This document shows positions 42,442 to 50,887 of a DNA stretch of 54,640 nucleotides, piece by piece. A program made the translations under genes and the position numbers. Source of the DNA: Cryomorphaceae bacterium. Its GTDB lineage: Bacteria; Bacteroidota; Bacteroidia; Flavobacteriales; Schleiferiaceae. The notes under the pieces are model-generated. The model made no database searches. It was not told where the DNA came from and saw nothing but the letters and a program-made list of their open reading frames with translations. The stretch is from assembly GCA_024638285.1 (NCBI GenBank), contig JAHEKP010000007.1, positions 1-54,640 of the forward strand, written 5' to 3'. Every line of letters starts with the position of its first letter. The first letter of the stretch is position 1.

Positions 42442-43755
42442 CTAGGAAGTGGATAAAGCCTCCTTGTAAGTTGCTAGACATCGCTCTCTTGCCCATTTGT
42501 GTTCCACTATAGGCTCTGGATATAGGTGTGTATTTAATTCAGGAACCCATTTATTCACATACGTAAGGTCTTTATCGAATTTAGCCATTTGAGAAGTTGG
42601 ATTAAACACGCGGAAATATGGTGCTGCATCTAATCCACTGCCACTAGCCCACTGCCACCCACCAATATTGCTGGCTAAATCAAAATCGAGCAGCTTTGCT
42701 GCGAAATAGGCCTCTCCCCAGCGCCAATCAATTAATAGATGCTTAGTTAAAAAGCTGGCAACTATCATTCGAACTCTATTGTGCATGAAACCAGTTGCAT
42801 TTAACTCTCGCATTCCTGCATCGACAATAGGATACCCCGTTTTTCCCTTGCACCAAGCGTTAAAATGATTCTCATTGTTAGACCACGGTATGAGGTCATA
42901 TTTTGGTTTTATTGCCTTAGTACGACTTTCAGGGAAATAATAAAGTGCCATTTGAAAGAAATCGCGCCAGATCAACTCATTCAAAAACGTTTCGTTCGTT
43001 TGTTCACTGATTCTCGCAAGATTCCTTACACTGACTGTACCAAACCTGAGATGAATACCTAGTTTGGTTGTTCCTCTTTTTAGACCAGGGAAATTTCTAG
43101 TACTGTCATAGTCTGCGATGATATTCTTTGAAATAAGAGCAGAGGGTATTTCAATATCAGTTCGCTCGAATCCCATCGTTCCTAACGAAATCAAAGGTTT
43201 TACTTCAACTGCTGTAAAAAATGCGTCAAAATATGCTTCGTTGTTATACGCTTTAAAGTGATACGGCGTACAGTGTTTTTTCCAAGCTTTCGCGTATGGA
43301 CTGTAGACTAAGTAAGGTGTGCCGTCTGCTTTTACTACTTCGTTCTTTTCAAATAAGACGTGGTCTTTCGCTCCAATACATGGAACATCTATAGCATCTA
43401 AATATTCGTAAACAAATTTGTCTCTTTCCCTAGCGTAGGGCTCGTAATCTCTGTTGAAGTAAAGACCAGTTACTTCGTAATGGTTACAAAGCTTCTTTAT
43501 AACTTCTAAAGGTTCGTCATAAAAAACCAATAAATCCGAGCCTAAGTTCTGGAGTTGCGATTTTAAATCTTGAATACGTTCGTGTAAAAAAGATACACGA
43601 CCATCCTGACGATCCTCTAGTTTTGAAAGAATGGTTGGATCGAATATAAATATAGGTACAACAGGTGTTCCACTCTTGAGTGCTTTCCAAAGCCCAGCGT
43701 TATCTTCTAACCTTAAATCGCGCCTAAACCAAAAAAGGGAAACCTTTTGAGCCAT
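42442..43755 (-). CDS. phr: Class I deoxyribodipyrimidine (CPD) photolyase
   Basis: This 437-residue flavoprotein repairs cyclobutane pyrimidine dimers with blue light. The N-terminal antenna-binding alpha/beta domain starts LFWFRRDLRLEDN. The FAD domain shows ELIWRDFFQM, GKTGYPIVDAGMRELNATG, MHNRVRMIVASFLTKHLL and DFDLASNIGGWQWASGSGLD, matching E. coli PhrB including the active-site Asn of the SNIGGW segment. It is the last gene of the carotenoid/pterin operon and directly abuts folE (TAAATG). Its antenna chromophore could be a folate or another pterin, which is of interest given folE and PTPS immediately upstream. A cryptochrome role is possible but less likely. Confidence 0.94.
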   Translation of the reverse strand: MAQKVSLFWFRRDLRLEDNAGLWKALKSGTPVVPIFIFDPTILSKLEDRQDGRVSFLHERIQDLKSQLQNLGSDLLVFYDEPLEVIKKLCNHYEVTGLYFNRDYEPYARERDKFVYEYLDAIDVPCIGAKDHVLFEKNEVVKADGTPYLVYSPYAKAWKKHCTPYHFKAYNNEAYFDAFFTAVEVKPLISLGTMGFERTDIEIPSALISKNIIADYDSTRNFPGLKRGTTKLGIHLRFGTVSVRNLARISEQTNETFLNELIWRDFFQMALYYFPESRTKAIKPKYDLIPWSNNENHFNAWCKGKTGYPIVDAGMRELNATGFMHNRVRMIVASFLTKHLLIDWRWGEAYFAAKLLDFDLASNIGGWQWASGSGLDAAPYFRVFNPTSQMAKFDKDLTYVNKWVPELNTHLYPEPIVEHKWARERCLATYKEALSTS

Positions 43756-44427
43756 TTATTGCACTGCGTTTAGGAAATACTGACGCTGTAATTCATCTTC
43801 AAAAGCACCGTGAAAAGCCATCGTAATGGTCGAACTTCCGGCATCTTCTATTCCTCTTGTTTTTACACACATGTGATCGGCTTCAAGGTAAACGGCCACA
43901 CTGGGGGTTCCTAGCCCCTCCATGAGCGCCTCCGCAATCTGTCGGGTAAGGCGTTCTTGTACCTGTGGTCGCTTGGAGTAGTGACGAACAATTCTATTCA
44001 ACTTAGATAGCCCAACTACTTGTCCATTAGGAATGTATGCTATGTGACAATTTCCTAAAATCGGCACAAAATGATGCTCACAATGTGAATGTACGGTAAT
44101 GTTCTTTTCAATAAGCATATCCTTATACTGATACTTATTATCGAACAGTTTCATCTCCGGCTTATTCTTTGGATTAAGACCTGCGAAGGCTTCTGAAACG
44201 TACATCTTTGCAACTCTTAATGGTGTGCCGCTCAAGCTGTCATCCGTAAGGTCTAAGCCCAAAATCTCCATGATATTTTTGAACTTTTCAGCGATAAGAG
44301 CAATCTTCTGGTCATCGCTTAATTTAAAAGCATCTGTTCTTAGGGGCGTATCAATTGAACTACCCATGTGATTGTCGAATAATTCGGCAAGCTCTTCTGT
44401 GGAATATTTTTGGTCGTGCTTTGTCAT
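43756..44427 (-). CDS. folE: GTP cyclohydrolase I
   Basis: From the chosen ATG (MTKHDQKYS) this is a 223-residue enzyme that converts GTP to 7,8-dihydroneopterin triphosphate. An ATG 48 nt upstream would overlap the PTPS gene and adds no family sequence. Zinc and active-site residues are in VHSHCEHHFVPILGNCHIAYIPNG, written here as VHSHCEHHFVPI and IAYIPNG; the second zinc cysteine is in HMCVKTRGIED, and the substrate motif is VQERLTRQIAEAL. The first 40 residues are an extension typical of many bacterial forms. It lies between PTPS (7 bp) and photolyase (0 bp), inside a carotenoid operon. Confidence 0.96.
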   Translation of the reverse strand: MTKHDQKYSTEELAELFDNHMGSSIDTPLRTDAFKLSDDQKIALIAEKFKNIMEILGLDLTDDSLSGTPLRVAKMYVSEAFAGLNPKNKPEMKLFDNKYQYKDMLIEKNITVHSHCEHHFVPILGNCHIAYIPNGQVVGLSKLNRIVRHYSKRPQVQERLTRQIAEALMEGLGTPSVAVYLEADHMCVKTRGIEDAGSSTITMAFHGAFEDELQRQYFLNAVQ

Positions 44428-44434
44428 AATTAGT

Positions 44435-44845
44435 TTATTCTCCGCAGTACTCAACAAAGTTTCTGGGGGTTTCATATAAGGTAACCTTCAAATCGAATGA
44501 TGTGTTCAGCTTAACTCTTAGTCTATTCCAGATTACATAAGCAATATGCTCTGCTGTAGGGTTTAAAGTTTTGAACTCCGGCACTTGAACGTTCAAGTTC
44601 TTGTGGTCCATATACTCCTCAACCTCAGATTTAATGAGGTCTGCAAGCACTTTCATATCGATAAGATATCCGGTTTTGGGATCTACTTTACCCGTAACAC
44701 CTACAATCAATTCATAGTTGTGTCCGTGGTAATACGGGTTATTACATTTACCAAAAAGTTCTTCGTTTTCTTCTGAAGTTAGGTTGGGTTCATGTAAACG
44801 GTGTGCCGCATTAAAGTGTGCTTTTCTATAAACCGTGATCTTCAT
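44435..44845 (-). CDS. 6-pyruvoyl-tetrahydropterin synthase (PTPS, eukaryote-like motif)
   Basis: This 136-residue enzyme has zinc ligands His15, His40 and His42 (FNAAHRL, YYHGHNY). The catalytic Cys34 lies in KCNNPYYHGHNY, giving the spacing Cys-x5-HGH found in animal PTPS, whereas QueD enzymes of queuosine synthesis have Cys-x3-HGH. This points to 6-pyruvoyl-tetrahydropterin, on the route to tetrahydrobiopterin-like cofactors, instead of 7-deazaguanine synthesis. The gene overlaps idi by 20 bp and precedes folE, the enzyme for the previous step. No sepiapterin reductase is adjacent. Confidence 0.9.
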   Translation of the reverse strand: MKITVYRKAHFNAAHRLHEPNLTSEENEELFGKCNNPYYHGHNYELIVGVTGKVDPKTGYLIDMKVLADLIKSEVEEYMDHKNLNVQVPEFKTLNPTAEHIAYVIWNRLRVKLNTSFDLKVTLYETPRNFVEYCGE

Positions 44846-45356
44846 TGTTCCAGTAGTTTAAGAATCGATTGTAGATGATTTTAAACCACTCTGTATATCG
44901 TTCAGGATTTTTTTCCATATCATTCGCTACCCACTCTACTGATTTCCAGTCAAATGAATCTACTTCATCTGGGTTAACCACTGGGTCTTCATTCCAACGT
45001 GCGATGAGCACGTGATCCAGTTCGTGTTCCGTTAAATCATTGTCTAATTCTGCTCTATAGATAAAACTAAAGACACGTTTTACATCACAAGTAAAGCCCA
45101 TTTCTTCCATGAGTCTTCTTCTTGCTGCCTCCTCAATACTTTCGCCATCTCTAGGGTGAGAGCAACAGGTATTTGTCCAGAGACCACCACTGTGGTATTT
45201 ATGGAGAGCCCTGCGTTGCAATAATATTTCGTTTTGATCATTCATGGCGAAAACAGAGAATGCACGGTGCAATTTCGCCAATCGGTGCGCTTCCATTTTC
45301 TCCATCAGTCCTAGAGCATTGTCTTGCTCATCGACCAGGATAACTTGTTCAGCCAT
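44826..45356 (-). CDS. idi: Isopentenyl-diphosphate delta-isomerase, type I
   Basis: This 176-residue Nudix-fold enzyme interconverts IPP and DMAPP. The catalytic Cys lies in NTCCSHPR and the catalytic Glu in EHELDHVL; the metal-binding histidines are in LHRAFSVF and CSHPR. The length matches the short bacterial form. It supplies DMAPP for carotenoid synthesis. It starts 3 bp after crtB and overlaps the PTPS gene by 20 bp, so it is certainly in the same transcript. Confidence 0.96.
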   Translation of the reverse strand: MAEQVILVDEQDNALGLMEKMEAHRLAKLHRAFSVFAMNDQNEILLQRRALHKYHSGGLWTNTCCSHPRDGESIEEAARRRLMEEMGFTCDVKRVFSFIYRAELDNDLTEHELDHVLIARWNEDPVVNPDEVDSFDWKSVEWVANDMEKNPERYTEWFKIIYNRFLNYWNNEDHGL

Positions 45357-45359
45357 AGT

Positions 45360-46196
45360 TTAAATCCAGTTTATGGTATGTCTAACGTAACTACTTAAGA
45401 ATAGTCCGTATTTTCTTTTATTTGAAATTCTAACACGTTGACTTAAAATAATGTCGCAATGTGTCTTTTTAATCTTTTTGAATAAGCTATAGTAGTACAC
45501 ATAGGCAATGTAAACACCAAAACGAGCTCCTTTAGGTAGTTGTTTAATACCCTCATATCCAGCCATGAAGTCGACATCTATATCTGCTTCAATTTCAGTT
45601 TTTACCGATTCATTGAAGTTGTTTAAATCAACCCCAGGGAAGTAAGTCCGGCCTAGTTTTTTATAATCGGCGTGTAAATCGCGCAAGAAATTAATCTTCT
45701 GAAAAGCACTTCCTAACTGCATTGCAGGGGTTTTCAAATTTTGATAACGTACTTCACTTCCATCTACAAAAACCTTCAAACACATGAGTCCAACGACTTC
45801 TGCAGAACCTAAAATGTACGCCTTGTATCCCGCTTCATCATAGTCATTCTTATATAGATCCATTTCCATAGACTTCAAGAAGGTCTCTATCAAGTCACGA
45901 TCTATTTCGAAGGTGTTTACGACTTGTTGAAAGCTGTTTAGAATAGGATTTAGACTTATTTTTTCGTCTAACGCTAAATGCGTGTCTTTCCAAAACCGTT
46001 CAAGAAGCTCTTTCTGAGGATATCCTTCAAAGGAATCCACAATCTCATCTGCAAAACGCACAAAACCATAAATCGCATAGATAGGATCGTGATACTTCTT
46101 GTCTAATCCCAGAATACCTAGGGAAAAAGAGGTAGAATACGCCTTAGTGGTCATTCTACTGGCTCTAATACTTACACTGTCGAATAATGCTTTCAT
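45360..46196 (-). CDS. crtB: Phytoene synthase
   Basis: This 278-residue trans-prenyltransferase condenses two geranylgeranyl diphosphates to phytoene. The two Asp-rich metal motifs are ADEIVDS (about 68-74) and FLRDLHADYKKLGR (about 168-181), and the YSTSFSLGI start is typical of the squalene/phytoene synthase family. Its ATG overlaps the crtI stop by 4 bp. The membrane-peripheral enzyme acts directly before CrtI in the pathway. Confidence 0.95.
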   Translation of the reverse strand: MKALFDSVSIRASRMTTKAYSTSFSLGILGLDKKYHDPIYAIYGFVRFADEIVDSFEGYPQKELLERFWKDTHLALDEKISLNPILNSFQQVVNTFEIDRDLIETFLKSMEMDLYKNDYDEAGYKAYILGSAEVVGLMCLKVFVDGSEVRYQNLKTPAMQLGSAFQKINFLRDLHADYKKLGRTYFPGVDLNNFNESVKTEIEADIDVDFMAGYEGIKQLPKGARFGVYIAYVYYYSLFKKIKKTHCDIILSQRVRISNKRKYGLFLSSYVRHTINWI

Positions 46197-47680
46197 ACTG
46201 CTTTCTTTAAAGAATAATCCTTTACGATTTCACCGCAAACTACTTCTCCACTAATCAATGAAGGAGGTACACCAGGACCTGGTGTGGTCAATTGGCCTGC
46301 GAAATAAAGATTAGCTACTTTTTTACTCTTAAGCCGAGGTTTAAATAGGGCTGTTTGGTCTAATGTATTAGCAAGGCCATAGGCATTGCCCTTGAAGCTA
46401 TTGTATTCGCTTTTAAAATCACTATATGCAAAACTGCGCTTCACCACCACACGATCACGGATAGACTCACCTGAATAAGCCTCAAGTCGATCCATCATCA
46501 AGTGATAATATTTTTCTCGTACCTCTTCACTATCACCGGATAATCCAGGAGCAGTAGGCATTAATAAAAACATGTTCTCGCACCCTTCCGGTGCAATAGA
46601 AGCATCTGTTTTCGTAGGTGCACTTGCATAGAACAGCGGCTTCGTAGGCCACATTGGTTCTGTGTAGATCTCGTGGGCATGCTGATCTAATTCATAGTCA
46701 AAGAATAAATTATGATGCAACACATTGGATACCTTCCCTTTAATTCCTAGATAAAATAAAAGTGATGAAGGTGCCATTTTGCGCTTTTCCCAATATTCAG
46801 GAGTGTATTCCCGATATTCTGGACTGCTTATATTTTGATCAATGTGGTGGTAATCGGCTCCTCCTACTACGATATCAGCCGTAAAGCTTCCACCTTTAGT
46901 TAAAACACTAATGATTTTTCCATCAGCATATTTAAAACCCGTCACTTCTGTACTGGTTCTAAATTTAACGCCTTGTTCCTTTGCTACGCGCACCATTCCT
47001 TCAATGATCTTATTCATACCACCCATAGGGTACCAAGTCCCAAGGGACATGTCAGCATAATTCATTAGGCTGTAGAGTGCAGGAGTATTTTGAGGTAATG
47101 CACCAAGGAACAAAACAGGGAATTCAAGTATTGCTTTTAATTTAGGATGTGTACTGACTTCCGCAACGTGTTTACGAATGTCTTTGAGCATATCCAGTTG
47201 AAACAGCCCCTTAACAATTCTAAAATCCATGAATTCAGTTAGGGATCTACCCGGCTTAAACACCAAGTCTTGAATACCTACATTGTATTTATATTCTGCC
47301 TGTTTTAGGAATTTACGTAGACGCAAACCAGACCCCGGGTCTAATCTATCAAACATCGCCTCGAGTGTTTGCATGTTTGGGCTTTGATCTTCGTGATCAT
47401 CAGCACCAAAGACCACTCTATACGAGGGATCAAGTCTTACAAGGTTGTACAGATCGGAAATTTCTTTATCGAAAGAAGCGAAATATCGCTCAAAAACATC
47501 TGGCATCCAGTACCAGCTGGGGCCCATATCGAAGGTAAAACCATCTTTTTCCCAAACCCGAGCTCTACCTCCAAGTTGGTCGTTTTTTTCAAGAAGGGTG
47601 ACATCGTATCCTTCTTTGGCAAGGAAGGACGCGGCACTAAGTCCGGCAAAGCCAGACCCTATGACTATTACTGATTTCAT
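46193..47680 (-). CDS. crtI: Phytoene desaturase
   Basis: This 495-residue FAD-dependent desaturase converts phytoene to lycopene or a related product. The N-terminal dinucleotide fold is VIGSGFAGLSAASFLAKEG, followed by ARVWEKDGFTFDMGPSWYWMP in two parts (ARVWEKDGF, FDMGPSWYW). The C-terminal bacterial desaturase signature is YFAGQLTTPGPGVP with SGEVVCGEIV. It lies 24 bp downstream of the sigma-factor gene. No cyclase or hydroxylase gene is in the window, so the final carotenoid is unknown. Confidence 0.96.
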   Translation of the reverse strand: MKSVIVIGSGFAGLSAASFLAKEGYDVTLLEKNDQLGGRARVWEKDGFTFDMGPSWYWMPDVFERYFASFDKEISDLYNLVRLDPSYRVVFGADDHEDQSPNMQTLEAMFDRLDPGSGLRLRKFLKQAEYKYNVGIQDLVFKPGRSLTEFMDFRIVKGLFQLDMLKDIRKHVAEVSTHPKLKAILEFPVLFLGALPQNTPALYSLMNYADMSLGTWYPMGGMNKIIEGMVRVAKEQGVKFRTSTEVTGFKYADGKIISVLTKGGSFTADIVVGGADYHHIDQNISSPEYREYTPEYWEKRKMAPSSLLFYLGIKGKVSNVLHHNLFFDYELDQHAHEIYTEPMWPTKPLFYASAPTKTDASIAPEGCENMFLLMPTAPGLSGDSEEVREKYYHLMMDRLEAYSGESIRDRVVVKRSFAYSDFKSEYNSFKGNAYGLANTLDQTALFKPRLKSKKVANLYFAGQLTTPGPGVPPSLISGEVVCGEIVKDYSLKKAV

Positions 47681-47704: not shown

Positions 47705-48211
47705 TTAATGACGTTGGTCAGCAAGCTTTTCCATCATCTTTTTACGGGCTAAGAAGATACGCGATTTAACAGTGCCTAATGGAATATTAAAATGCTCTGC
47801 AATTTCTTCGTATTTAAAGCCTTCATAATGCATAAAAAACGCTTCAGTGTAGTGCTTTTCAATGGTGCCGATTTGGTCCATGATGTACTGATTATCAACA
47901 TTTGCATCAGTCAGAGTGGTCTTCCCAGCCTCACGAGAATTTAAAAAGAATTGCCCTTCTGTTTCGTCTACAAAAGTATTTTGTTGCTTTTTCCGACGGT
48001 AATTGTTGATGAAGGTATTCTTCATGATAGTATACAACCATCCTTTAAGATTTGTACCTGTGGCAAACTTGTCCTTATTCTTCAGTGCCTTGTAGTAGGT
48101 ATCCTGGAGTAAATCATCAGCATCATCGCGACGCTTGGTAAGCTTCATAGCGAGTTGACTTAAAAAGTCGTGCTCGCGATCAATGAGTTGTCCAAATTCA
48201 GCAGTTGACAT
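47705..48211 (-). CDS. ECF-family RNA polymerase sigma factor
   Basis: From ATG 48211 this is a 168-residue sigma factor. An in-frame start at 48280 would add 23 residues that lie across the promoter and the TTGTTTAAC repeats. Region 2 is DADDLLQDTYYKAL to LKGWLYTIMKNTFINNYRR, and region 4 is EEIAEHFNIPLGTVKSRIFLARKK. No anti-sigma gene is adjacent. It stands between the CarH-like regulator and crtI, so a chain from CarH to sigma factor to carotenoid genes is plausible, as in the light response of other bacteria. Confidence 0.92.
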   Translation of the reverse strand: MSTAEFGQLIDREHDFLSQLAMKLTKRRDDADDLLQDTYYKALKNKDKFATGTNLKGWLYTIMKNTFINNYRRKKQQNTFVDETEGQFFLNSREAGKTTLTDANVDNQYIMDQIGTIEKHYTEAFFMHYEGFKYEEIAEHFNIPLGTVKSRIFLARKKMMEKLADQRH

Positions 48212-48218
48212 GATACAA

Positions 48219-48250
48219 TTGTTTAACGTTTGTTCCGTAAAGTTAAACAA
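48219..48250. promoter_or_regulatory. 9-bp inverted repeat over the sigma-factor promoter, candidate CarH operator
   Basis: TTGTTTAAC (48219-48227) and GTTAAACAA (48242-48250) are perfect 9-bp inverted arms with a 14-nt spacer, lying 8 bp before the sigma-factor ATG. The second arm overlaps the putative -7 box at 48238-48245. A further TTAAACAA half-site occurs at 48289-48296. The spacing suits a dimeric or tetrameric MerR-type repressor covering the promoter. Confidence 0.62.
48238..48245 (-). promoter_or_regulatory. -7-like box of the sigma-factor/crt operon
   Basis: On the minus strand TAACTTTA is a one-base variant of TAnnTTTG. It predicts a start near 48233 and a leader of about 20 nt. 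It overlaps one arm of the TTGTTTAAC inverted repeat. Confidence 0.4.
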
Positions 48251-48305
48251 CGTGTTTGAACATTTTGTATAATCTTTCAAGAAATTTATTAAACAAAGTG
48301 TTTTT

Positions 48306-49193
48306 TTAAGATAAACCTTCGCTCAATTCCTTTAAAGTGCTGTAGATATTGATGTTGGTGAATTTACGATCTGGGGTAAATTCCGAAAAAACATACCCCG
48401 TAAGGTGTACTTGGATGCCTTTATGAACAATAAGCTCTTCCAATTCGTCCAAATAGTTGCCTAATTCAGGCAATTCTGGATGCGTAGTGAAACAACTAAT
48501 AAGATGATCAACAGGTTGGTTGTCTAAAAGGTCTGTCAAATATTCTTTTGGAAGACTCTGACCTAAATAATAGACCTGCTCCCCTCGCTCTTTCAGAATA
48601 TAGGCGAGATACAACACGCCTATTTCATGAAGTTCGTTAGCAGGCAAAAATATCGCGTACTTTCCGTTACGCTCATTAGCGATTGCCGGGAGCGCATCAA
48701 TGGCAGCAAAGATTTTCTGACGTATTAATGATGAAACGAAATGCTCTTGAGAAATGCCAACGCTTCCTGAAAGCCAAAGCTTGCCTAATTCTTGTATGTA
48801 GTCACCGATTACTTCTCTATACGTTGTATGAACTCCGTATTGCTCTATACAATGGTGCATGATTGATTCAAACCTCTTAATGTCGAAACCTAGGGTAGCT
48901 ATCTTCAGCTCATTTAACTCGTACGTATAGTTTCCTTCGTAAGGACTCGCTTCTAAGGCTAATTCCGCCAATTCAATTGGAGCGTGCTTTGATATCTTTC
49001 CGATTTTCCATCCAGCACCAAGCAGTACAGAAGTATTTAAAATGACGCGTAAATCATGGTCACCGTAGTAACGAATGTTAGTAGCTGTCCTTTTTGGTTC
49101 AATAAGCTTGTATCGCTGCTCCCACGCACGAATGGTATGGGCTTTAATACCACTTAATTGTTCCAGGTCTTTTATTGAATATTTACTCTCCAC
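48306..49193 (-). CDS. carH: CarH/LitR-type B12-dependent MerR-family photoreceptor regulator
   Basis: This 295-residue regulator has an N-terminal MerR helix-turn-helix (YSIKDLEQLSGIKAHTIRAW), a four-helix B12-capping domain with the motif Trp140-x9-Glu150-His151, and a Rossmann-like cobalamin-binding domain with Glu187-Leu-His189-Glu-Ile-Gly192, the ExHxxG motif that supplies the cobalt ligand. These are the diagnostic motifs of CarH, which represses carotenoid genes in the dark as an adenosylcobalamin-bound tetramer and falls apart in light. The start codon is GTG. The residue after Trp140 is Leu; in Thermus CarH it is the His that re-ligates cobalt after illumination. It is divergent from prfC and upstream of the sigma-factor and crt genes. 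Confidence 0.93.
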   Translation of the reverse strand: MESKYSIKDLEQLSGIKAHTIRAWEQRYKLIEPKRTATNIRYYGDHDLRVILNTSVLLGAGWKIGKISKHAPIELAELALEASPYEGNYTYELNELKIATLGFDIKRFESIMHHCIEQYGVHTTYREVIGDYIQELGKLWLSGSVGISQEHFVSSLIRQKIFAAIDALPAIANERNGKYAIFLPANELHEIGVLYLAYILKERGEQVYYLGQSLPKEYLTDLLDNQPVDHLISCFTTHPELPELGNYLDELEELIVHKGIQVHLTGYVFSEFTPDRKFTNINIYSTLKELSEGLS

Positions 49194-49221
49194 TATCTGC
49201 TAACCGCTAAAAGGTAATAAA

Positions 49222-49228
49222 GTTTAAC
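49222..49228. promoter_or_regulatory. GTTTAAC half-site beside the carH promoter
   Basis: GTTTAAC is identical to the arm of the inverted repeat at 48221-48227. It lies just upstream of a possible carH -7 box (TACCTTTT on the minus strand, 49209-49216). It may be an autoregulatory CarH site; only one half-site is obvious. Confidence 0.4.
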
Positions 49229-49280
49229 AAAACAGGGCGAGTATAATAAATAACCACTAAATCCCCGAAGAAACCTTTGG

Positions 49281-49288
49281 TATATTTG
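49281..49288 (+). promoter_or_regulatory. -7 promoter box of prfC
   Basis: TATATTTG matches the consensus exactly, 18 nt before the ATG at 49307. It lies inside any longer in-frame start, which fixes the ATG at 49307 as the likely start. Confidence 0.65.
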
Positions 49289-49306
49289 CCAATCAAAAAT
49301 CTGAAC

Positions 49307-50887
49307 ATGGCCTTCGAGAAAGAAATTAGAAAGCGTAGAACCTTCGGAATTATATCGCATCCAGATGCGGGAAAGACCACTCTTACTGAGAAATTACTGC
49401 TTTTTGGGGGTGCCATACAGGAGGCGGGTGCTGTAAAGAGTAATAAGGTTAAGAAAGCGGCAACATCAGATTTCATGGAAATTGAGAAGCAGCGTGGTAT
49501 ATCTGTCGCGACCTCCGTCATGGGATTTTATTATAAGGATAAGAAAATCAATATTCTCGATACACCCGGTCACCAAGATTTCGCAGAAGATACCTACCGG
49601 ACCCTAACAGCTTGTGATAGTGTTATAGTCGTGATCGATGTTGCTAAGGGAGTAGAAGCTCAGACTGAAAAATTAGTCAAAGTTTGTCGAATGCGCGATA
49701 CTCCAATTATTGTATTCATAAACAAGCTCGACCGTGAAGGTAAAGATGGATTTGACCTCATTGATGAAGTAGAACAGAAGCTTGGATTGTCCTTGTGTCC
49801 GCTCTCCTGGCCCGTGGGTATGGGACAACGTTTCCAAGGTGTTTACAATATGTGGGAGAAAAATCTTCATTTGTATTCTGCCGATAACAAGCAGAAAATA
49901 TCAGAGGGCACTTCTATCAAGGATATTAATGACCCGTTGTTAGAGCAGCGTGTAGGTGATGAAGCCGCTATGGAGCTTAGGAATGATCTTGAGCTATTAG
50001 AGGCTGTCTATCCGGAGTTTAACCGTGCTGATTATTTAAAAGGTGCGCAATGTCCTGTTTTTTTCGGCTCTGCATTAAATAATTTTGGTGTACGAGAACT
50101 TTTAGATTGCTTCCAAGAAATCGCTCCTGAGCCGCAAGCAAAGGAGGCTGAAGAGCGACTTGTCCAACCTAACGAAGACCAATTCTCTGGTTTTGTATTT
50201 AAAATACATGCTAACATTGACCCCAACCACCGAAATAGAATTGCCTTTTTAAAAGTAGTTAGCGGAAAATTTGAGCGAAACAAGACCTACGTTCATACAA
50301 GAACTAACAAGACCTTTAGGGTGAGCGCCCCCACTGCGTTTATGGCTTCAAAGAAAAGTACTATAGAAGAAGCCTTTCCTGGTGATATCATAGGTATTCC
50401 TGATAATGGTTCGTTTAGAATCGGTGATACAGTTTCTGAAAAAGAGTCGTTACACTACATGGGAATTCCGTCTTTCTCACCTGAGCATTTTAGGTTCATT
50501 AACAATGCCGATCCTTTAAAGGCAAAACAGTTAAATAAAGGAGTTGACCAATTAATGGACGAAGGTGTGGCGCAACTTTTTACGCTGAAGCAAAATAATC
50601 GGAGGATTATTGGGACTGTTGGTGCACTTCAATATGAGGTTATTCAATATCGACTAGAACACGAATACAATGCCAAGTGTACTTATGAAAATTTTCCTGC
50701 ATTTAAAGCATGTTGGATTGAAAGCCATGATGACGCACAACTTCAAGAATTTAGCATGCTCAAGCAACGCTACCTTGCTGAAGATAAATTTGGTCGACTT
50801 GTATTTTTAGCGGATTCTCAATTCTCGCTTCAAATGGCGCAGGATAAATTTGATAAAATCACTTTCCATTTAAAGAGTGAATTCTAA
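49307..50887 (+). CDS. prfC: Peptide chain release factor 3
   Basis: This 526-residue translational GTPase recycles release factors 1 and 2 from the ribosome. G motifs are HPDAGKTTLTEK (P loop), EKQRGISV (switch I), DTPGHQDFAEDTY (G3) and INKLDREG (G4), and the remaining length matches RF3 rather than EF-G. The start at 49307 (MAFEKEIRKRRT) is preferred over an in-frame codon at 49277 because the latter lies upstream of the promoter box. Its stop directly abuts the next ATG (TAAATG). Confidence 0.96.
   Translation: MAFEKEIRKRRTFGIISHPDAGKTTLTEKLLLFGGAIQEAGAVKSNKVKKAATSDFMEIEKQRGISVATSVMGFYYKDKKINILDTPGHQDFAEDTYRTLTACDSVIVVIDVAKGVEAQTEKLVKVCRMRDTPIIVFINKLDREGKDGFDLIDEVEQKLGLSLCPLSWPVGMGQRFQGVYNMWEKNLHLYSADNKQKISEGTSIKDINDPLLEQRVGDEAAMELRNDLELLEAVYPEFNRADYLKGAQCPVFFGSALNNFGVRELLDCFQEIAPEPQAKEAEERLVQPNEDQFSGFVFKIHANIDPNHRNRIAFLKVVSGKFERNKTYVHTRTNKTFRVSAPTAFMASKKSTIEEAFPGDIIGIPDNGSFRIGDTVSEKESLHYMGIPSFSPEHFRFINNADPLKAKQLNKGVDQLMDEGVAQLFTLKQNNRRIIGTVGALQYEVIQYRLEHEYNAKCTYENFPAFKACWIESHDDAQLQEFSMLKQRYLAEDKFGRLVFLADSQFSLQMAQDKFDKITFHLKSEF

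Follow-up and report, generated by a model that had tools for sequence, protein, structure and literature searches.

CarH photoreceptors, also known as class I LitR, are described in Thermus thermophilus and Bacillus megaterium as repressors that act in the dark by promoter occlusion when bound to adenosylcobalamin and that are released by light, and the characterized operators consist of three to four tandem 11-bp direct repeats of nAnnTnnACAn (PMC8156234, PMC9304148). In Myxococcus and Cystobacter two dimers of CarA/CarH bind cooperatively at about 55 bp, and inverted repeats have been proposed for CarA (PMC9304148). The class II LitR proteins PplR1 and PmlR2 of Pseudomonas recognize inverted TRTACA-N12-TGTAYA sequences, with two sites per promoter and a regulon of photolyase and folE genes (PMC9758184). 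Proteins of this second class have no complete B12 domain and act together with LOV proteins. The ECF sigma factor CarQ of Myxococcus belongs to a separate, B12-independent pathway and is not under direct CarH control. In Streptomyces coelicolor, a member of an unrelated phylum, the B12 regulator of the LitR-LitS pair adjoins an ECF sigma factor that drives carotenoid genes. No earlier CarH operator or regulon from the Bacteroidota was found in the open-access literature searched. The regulator might already have been described as MliR of Bizionia, but that identification was set aside, as the text mentions neither CarH nor an operator (PMC9478572).

The locus considered here lies in a 54,640-nucleotide stretch of DNA (the window) from a Cryomorphaceae bacterium, placed by its named relatives in the family Schleiferiaceae, whose genome assembly is 1.71 Mb and about 91% complete. 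A carH gene (48306-49193, minus strand), proposed from Pfam matches, motifs and fold to encode both the operator binder and the photoreceptor, is followed on the same strand by a gene for an ECF-type sigma factor (47705-48211; 168 aa from the ATG at 48211), the first gene of the proposed operon. The minus-strand run continues through a crtI-like phytoene desaturase of the amine oxidoreductase family (46193-47680), a crtB-like phytoene synthase (45360-46196), a NUDIX protein that is probably isopentenyl-diphosphate isomerase (idi; 44826-45356), a 6-pyruvoyl tetrahydropterin synthase-like (PTPS-like) protein (44435-44845) and folE, encoding GTP cyclohydrolase I (43756-44475), and closes with a DNA photolyase/cryptochrome gene (42442-43755).

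The CarH protein of the window combines an N-terminal MerR-type domain (Pfam MerR_1, 5e-14) with a C-terminal cobalamin-binding domain (B12-binding_2, 5e-6), and its best match by sequence search is T. thermophilus CarH (5c8d, E 2e-16). The AlphaFold2 model (pLDDT 89.5) returned 5c8d as the top Foldseek match (E 1.4e-13), with 5c8d and 5c8e the best fold matches; full-chain superposition on these two structures gave a modest TM-score and a high rmsd, which probably reflect domain arrangement, since entries for the B12 domain align at about 3 A. The W-x9-EH motif that guards the adenosyl group is present as WLSGSVGISQEH, its W, E and H being invariant across 57 aligned homologues, and the E/D-x-H-x-x-G motif that carries the lower axial histidine reads ELHEIG, with the histidine kept in 55 of the 57. 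B12 photoreception is likely given this distribution of the two motifs. The two homologues that are missing the axial histidine both belong to family f14 (L217 in G049 and L248 in G112); they keep W-x9-EH and read EFNELL in place of ELHELG, and are possibly B12-independent, CarA-like regulators.

Two palindromes occupy the region between carH and the sigma gene. The proximal one pairs TTGTTTAAC (48219-48227) with GTTAAACAA (48242-48250), giving the perfect 9-bp inverted repeat with a 14-nt spacer that a preliminary description of this DNA had reported; its 8-bp core is TTGTTTAA-N16-TTAAACAA, and the sigma ATG lies 7 nt beyond its end. The third half-site of that description, ATTAAACAA at 48288-48296, is present beyond a gap of 37 nt from position 48250 but does not stand alone, being the outer arm of a distal inverted pair, TTGTATAAT-N14-ATTAAACAA (48265-48296), which has the same spacer as the proximal pair and one core mismatch. 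The two palindromes are 46 bp apart, start to start, and the four half-site centres (48223, 48246, 48269 and 48292) fall at exact 23-bp steps with alternating orientation. The consensus of the Bacteroidota -7 promoter box is TAnnTTTG. The stretch TAACTTTA (48238-48245, minus strand), of which TAACTTTG is the commonest form in relatives, is taken here to resemble this box, and because it is overlapped by the upstream arm of the proximal palindrome, the proposal that the repeat covers the sigma-factor promoter is plausible. No clear -33 element was found at this promoter. Given the overlap on one side and the ATG 7 nt away on the other, the presumed promoter as well as the start site would lie beneath a protein seated on the two palindromes. 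A further copy of the element had been placed at the carH promoter, and there the proposal fails: the GTTTAAC 7-mer (49223-49229, within the stretch 49222-49230) is in the opposite orientation (GTTTAACAA, not TTGTTTAAC or GTTAAACAA) and has no inverted partner, no inverted repeat was found around 49180-49320 near the carH start, and as a lone, degenerate 7-mer it is rejected as an operator by these tests.

In the window alone the evidence for an operator is only suggestive; what makes it significant is its conservation and the comparison across genomes. Single arms with up to one mismatch match 16 times in the window against 23 expected by chance, so that single half-sites carry no meaning, and the paired motif with up to three mismatches matches twice against 1.0 expected from shuffling. 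Across the genome of this bacterium the exact motif TTGTTTAAC-N14-GTTAAACAA occurs once; with up to three mismatches the next best matches are one unrelated site and the second palindrome of the same intergenic region, and the 8-bp core with up to two mismatches is found only at the two sites of the sigma promoter, as against three unrelated matches for a reversed-pattern control in the same relaxed search.

Conservation in related genomes, where the repeat might have proved peculiar to this one locus, is nearly complete. The gene order prfC/carH/sigma/crtI is retained in nearly all family loci examined, and when 58 distinct sigma upstream regions were scanned for palindromes at all spacings from 6 to 29, 57 of the 58 distinct carH-sigma loci had TTGTTTAA-N16/17-TTAAACAA, with no more than two core mismatches, ahead of the ECF sigma gene, the best spacing being 16 in 47 loci and 17 in 10. 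The arms in these regions are almost invariant, that beside the sigma start codon as well conserved as the other, and the gap is variable save for a TTTG after the left arm. A second palindrome is present in 32 of 58 loci, compared with 2.5 expected from shuffles, and in 34 of 57 when the scan was made slightly differently; its distance is 46 bp in the genus of the window and 52-56 bp elsewhere. In distant family members the palindrome also lies upstream of carH itself, which suggests autoregulation there. Other Bacteroidia outside the order (f18, f21, f22) carry carH-sigma-crtI loci with the same palindromes, often in tandem and 44-63 bp apart from start to start; the palindrome was not found at a few of the CarH loci searched outside the order (e.g. 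L350, L357, L363). Where carH directly precedes crtI with no sigma gene (L048, L218, L219, L220), the palindrome is still found between the two, and it thus tracks carH and not sigma. The sigma-containing arrangement is probably the older one, the sigma gene having been lost in the carH-crtI lineages.

The resemblance to the CarH/class I LitR systems of T. thermophilus and B. megaterium extends to protein family, domain order, W-x9-EH and axial histidine, predicted fold, promoter-overlapping operator, TnnACA-type half-site and carotenoid targets (PMC8156234, PMC9304148), the TnnACA core being contained as TAAACA in TTAAACAA and as TATACA in TTATACAA, the arm of a variant operator considered below. 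Whereas the operators of those systems are tandem 11-bp direct repeats, the half-sites here are inverted, 24-25 bp apart with a gap of 16-17 bp, and often form two palindromes separated by 44-63 bp. A search of the 58 sigma upstreams for three or more TnnACA cores in tandem at 11 bp gave a longest run of one in 55 and of two in 3, similar to shuffles, and the canonical direct-repeat operator is rejected as absent from all 58 promoters. The half-site and its spacing differ from those of CarA/CarH in Myxococcus and Cystobacter as well. The class II LitR sites, with their TGTACA half-site and N12 gap, are likewise distinct, as the gap here is 16 or 17 bp in all 57 matching loci (TGTTTA-N18-TAAACA when written with 6-bp arms). 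Judged on its sequence, the system is of the CarH family by its protein, falls outside the known CarH operator definition of tandem direct repeats, and presents the TnnACA core in an inverted layout.

The distribution of the sites links them to carH. The exact motif occurs in 47 of 88 family genomes, its reversed control matching once, and across the 146 genomes of the order TTGTWTAA-N16/17-TTAWACAA gives 129 sites against 13 for the reversed control, so that the pattern, which might have proved just as common at unrelated promoters, is nearly confined to carH-bearing genomes. With carH presence called at E<=1e-20 (73 of the 146), sites are found in 56 of 73 genomes with the gene and 4 of 73 without it (Fisher p=7e-20, for genome counts that are not phylogenetically independent). 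One carH-less family has no sites in 26 genomes, and a second, carH-bearing family has 69 sites in 27; the 17 carH-bearing genomes without an exact site would have degenerate sites or other operators. The intergenic DNA is AT-rich, and the two pair matches in the window against 1.0 expected are what chance or low-complexity repeats might produce, but these comparative counts, together with nearly invariant arms at fixed spacing in 57 of 58 loci, refute a chance origin, to which virtually no probability is assigned.

The recognition helix of CarH offers a further test of which protein is involved. In families f7, f8, f11 and f15 the helix has lost KAHT (residues 17-20) and reads instead xK and then F, I or L, and in these families all 23 of 23 sites are TTGTATAA-N16-TTATACAA, both arms changed symmetrically, compared with TTGTTTAA/TTAAACAA in 64 of the 67 listed sites of KAHT-type genomes. 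The operator letters thus change with the CarH helix, and CarH is therefore very probably the binder of these palindromes; the four variant families may be one clade, and the covariation may then be a single evolutionary event. Conceivably the palindromes are instead the target of some other dimeric regulator, or of a MerR paralogue, that happens to co-occur with carH: their inverted geometry is unlike that of characterized CarH operators (PMC8156234, PMC9304148), and one genome (G238) has three CarH-like genes. This is unlikely when the covariation is set beside the near-absence of sites from genomes without carH, the position of 14 of the 67 listed sites outside the family at less than 1 kb from carH, most of them 7-60 bp away, and the fit of the half-site TAAACA or TATACA to the TnnACA core of CarH (PMC9304148). 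Slightly less probable still is that the repeats are parts of an autoregulated ECF promoter, with TAAACAA as a -35-like and GTTTAA as a -10-like element, and not a repressor operator. A similar-looking T[AG]AACAA-N15-GTT[AT]A does occur at 30 of 52 rhodopsin promoters in the family, and the arms of the distal and proximal palindromes here follow a similar order, though one base farther apart; a sigma factor acting on its own promoter would leave unexplained the persistence of the palindrome at loci that have crtI directly after carH and no sigma gene, the equal conservation of the arm on the start-codon side, the variation of the distance between palindromes from 44 to 63 bp, which would not be expected of a promoter spacing, and the covariation with the CarH helix.

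Asymmetric sites, TTGTCTAA-N16-TTATACAA, are found at G126:C11:42664 and G126:C17:4919 (family f15; L342). In a different f15 genome (L221) the CarH helix reads PKIN in place of KAHT, and given these two observations there may be a third operator specificity.

It is highly probable, on the strength of the comparative sequence evidence, that the adjacent CarH-type B12 photoreceptor (48306-49193) uses the two tandem palindromes (48219-48250 and 48265-48296) as its operator and through them represses the sigma-to-photolyase run in the dark, with relief by light; the suggestion that the inverted pair is a candidate operator for the neighboring regulator is thus strengthened by its conservation and its carH-linked distribution. 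In the dark, adenosylcobalamin-loaded CarH, presumably as an oligomer, would bind the inverted TTGTTTAA/TTAAACAA half-sites and cover the -7 region and the start of the sigma promoter, so occluding it and repressing the same-strand sigma-crtI-crtB-idi-PTPS-folE-photolyase run, which we infer to be a single transcript. Light would break the cobalt-carbon bond and release CarH, allowing the run to be expressed, after which the ECF sigma factor would presumably amplify or relay the signal. By analogy with described CarH proteins, light-relieved dark repression of a sigma-carotenoid-photolyase operon is the most likely mode of action.

Beyond the cluster, Pfam domains were sought in the first genes behind off-cluster sites across the order, and the remaining genes of each stretch served as the control set. 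Fasciclin domains are found in 21 of 106 first genes and 2 of 141 neighbors, secreted lipoproteins with this domain being the commonest first gene behind the palindrome (e.g. L255, L260, L274, L281, L294). Bacteriorhodopsin-like proteins (5 of 106 versus 0 of 141), flavin reductases (5 of 106, and not among the top 25 domains of the 141 neighbors), beta-carotene dioxygenase (blh; 3 of 106 versus 2 of 141), TetR_C_23 (4 of 106) and lycopene cyclase (2 of 106) follow, and from reading of the sequences single sites face photolyase/cryptochrome (L282, L291), folE (L289), MsrA-like (L284) and SDR genes. The contrast between targets and neighbors is conservative, because photolyases of the control set belong to the same small clusters. 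Across the Bacteroidia, a CarH switch very probably keeps photoprotective genes silent in the dark: those for carotenoids and DNA repair and, in several marine lineages, also those for rhodopsin, the light-driven proton pump.

The genome paper on Dokdonia PRO95 described the regulation of proteorhodopsin expression in marine flavobacteria as an unresolved matter (PMC3587595). Upstream of family rhodopsin genes the palindrome, with up to two mismatches, is present in 16 of 52 distinct regions (0.4 in shuffles). In two genomes (L269 in G193, L301 in G141) it lies between divergent proteorhodopsin and blh genes, where a single operator could govern the making of both opsin and retinal. At the rhodopsin gene of the window's own genome a direct palindrome is rejected, the arms being degenerate, and only the ECF-like element T[AG]AACAA-N15-GTT[AT]A remains (G000:C13:19672-19698, minus strand; L188). 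This element, whose 30 occurrences in the family compare with 0.03 in shuffles, is seen only at spacing 15, lies 54-59 nt before proteorhodopsin start codons and, when defined strictly, hardly occurs outside rhodopsin promoters in five genomes of the genus; that it is read by the CarH-controlled ECF sigma factor is a guess. The broadest reading, held tentatively and at somewhat less than even probability, is of a class-wide B12-and-light regulon of the Bacteroidia whose CarH operator geometry, a single or double inverted palindrome, is previously undescribed and whose photoreceptor would also time proteorhodopsin and retinal production in marine members, either by acting on palindromes at the rhodopsin/blh promoters themselves (e.g. 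G193, G141, G073, G020) or, in the species of the window, possibly through the CarH-controlled sigma factor on T[AG]AACAA-N15-GTT[AT]A.

With a defined operator, both the Bacteroidota CarH regulon and the regulation of proteorhodopsin become directly testable, and a light regulon is predicted for one of the major bacterial groups of the ocean. The arrangement would imply that CarH can recognize DNA in an inverted layout, unlike that of the solved Thermus complex, and the natural pairs of helix and operator (KAHT with TTGTTTAA, non-KAHT with TTGTATAA) provide variants of differing specificity that could be taken directly into B12-based optogenetic switches. Within the window the pterin genes, PTPS-like and folE, stand just before the photolyase gene (42442-44845), neighbors in this stretch overlapping or abutting, and may provide the photolyase with a pterin, as antenna or otherwise.
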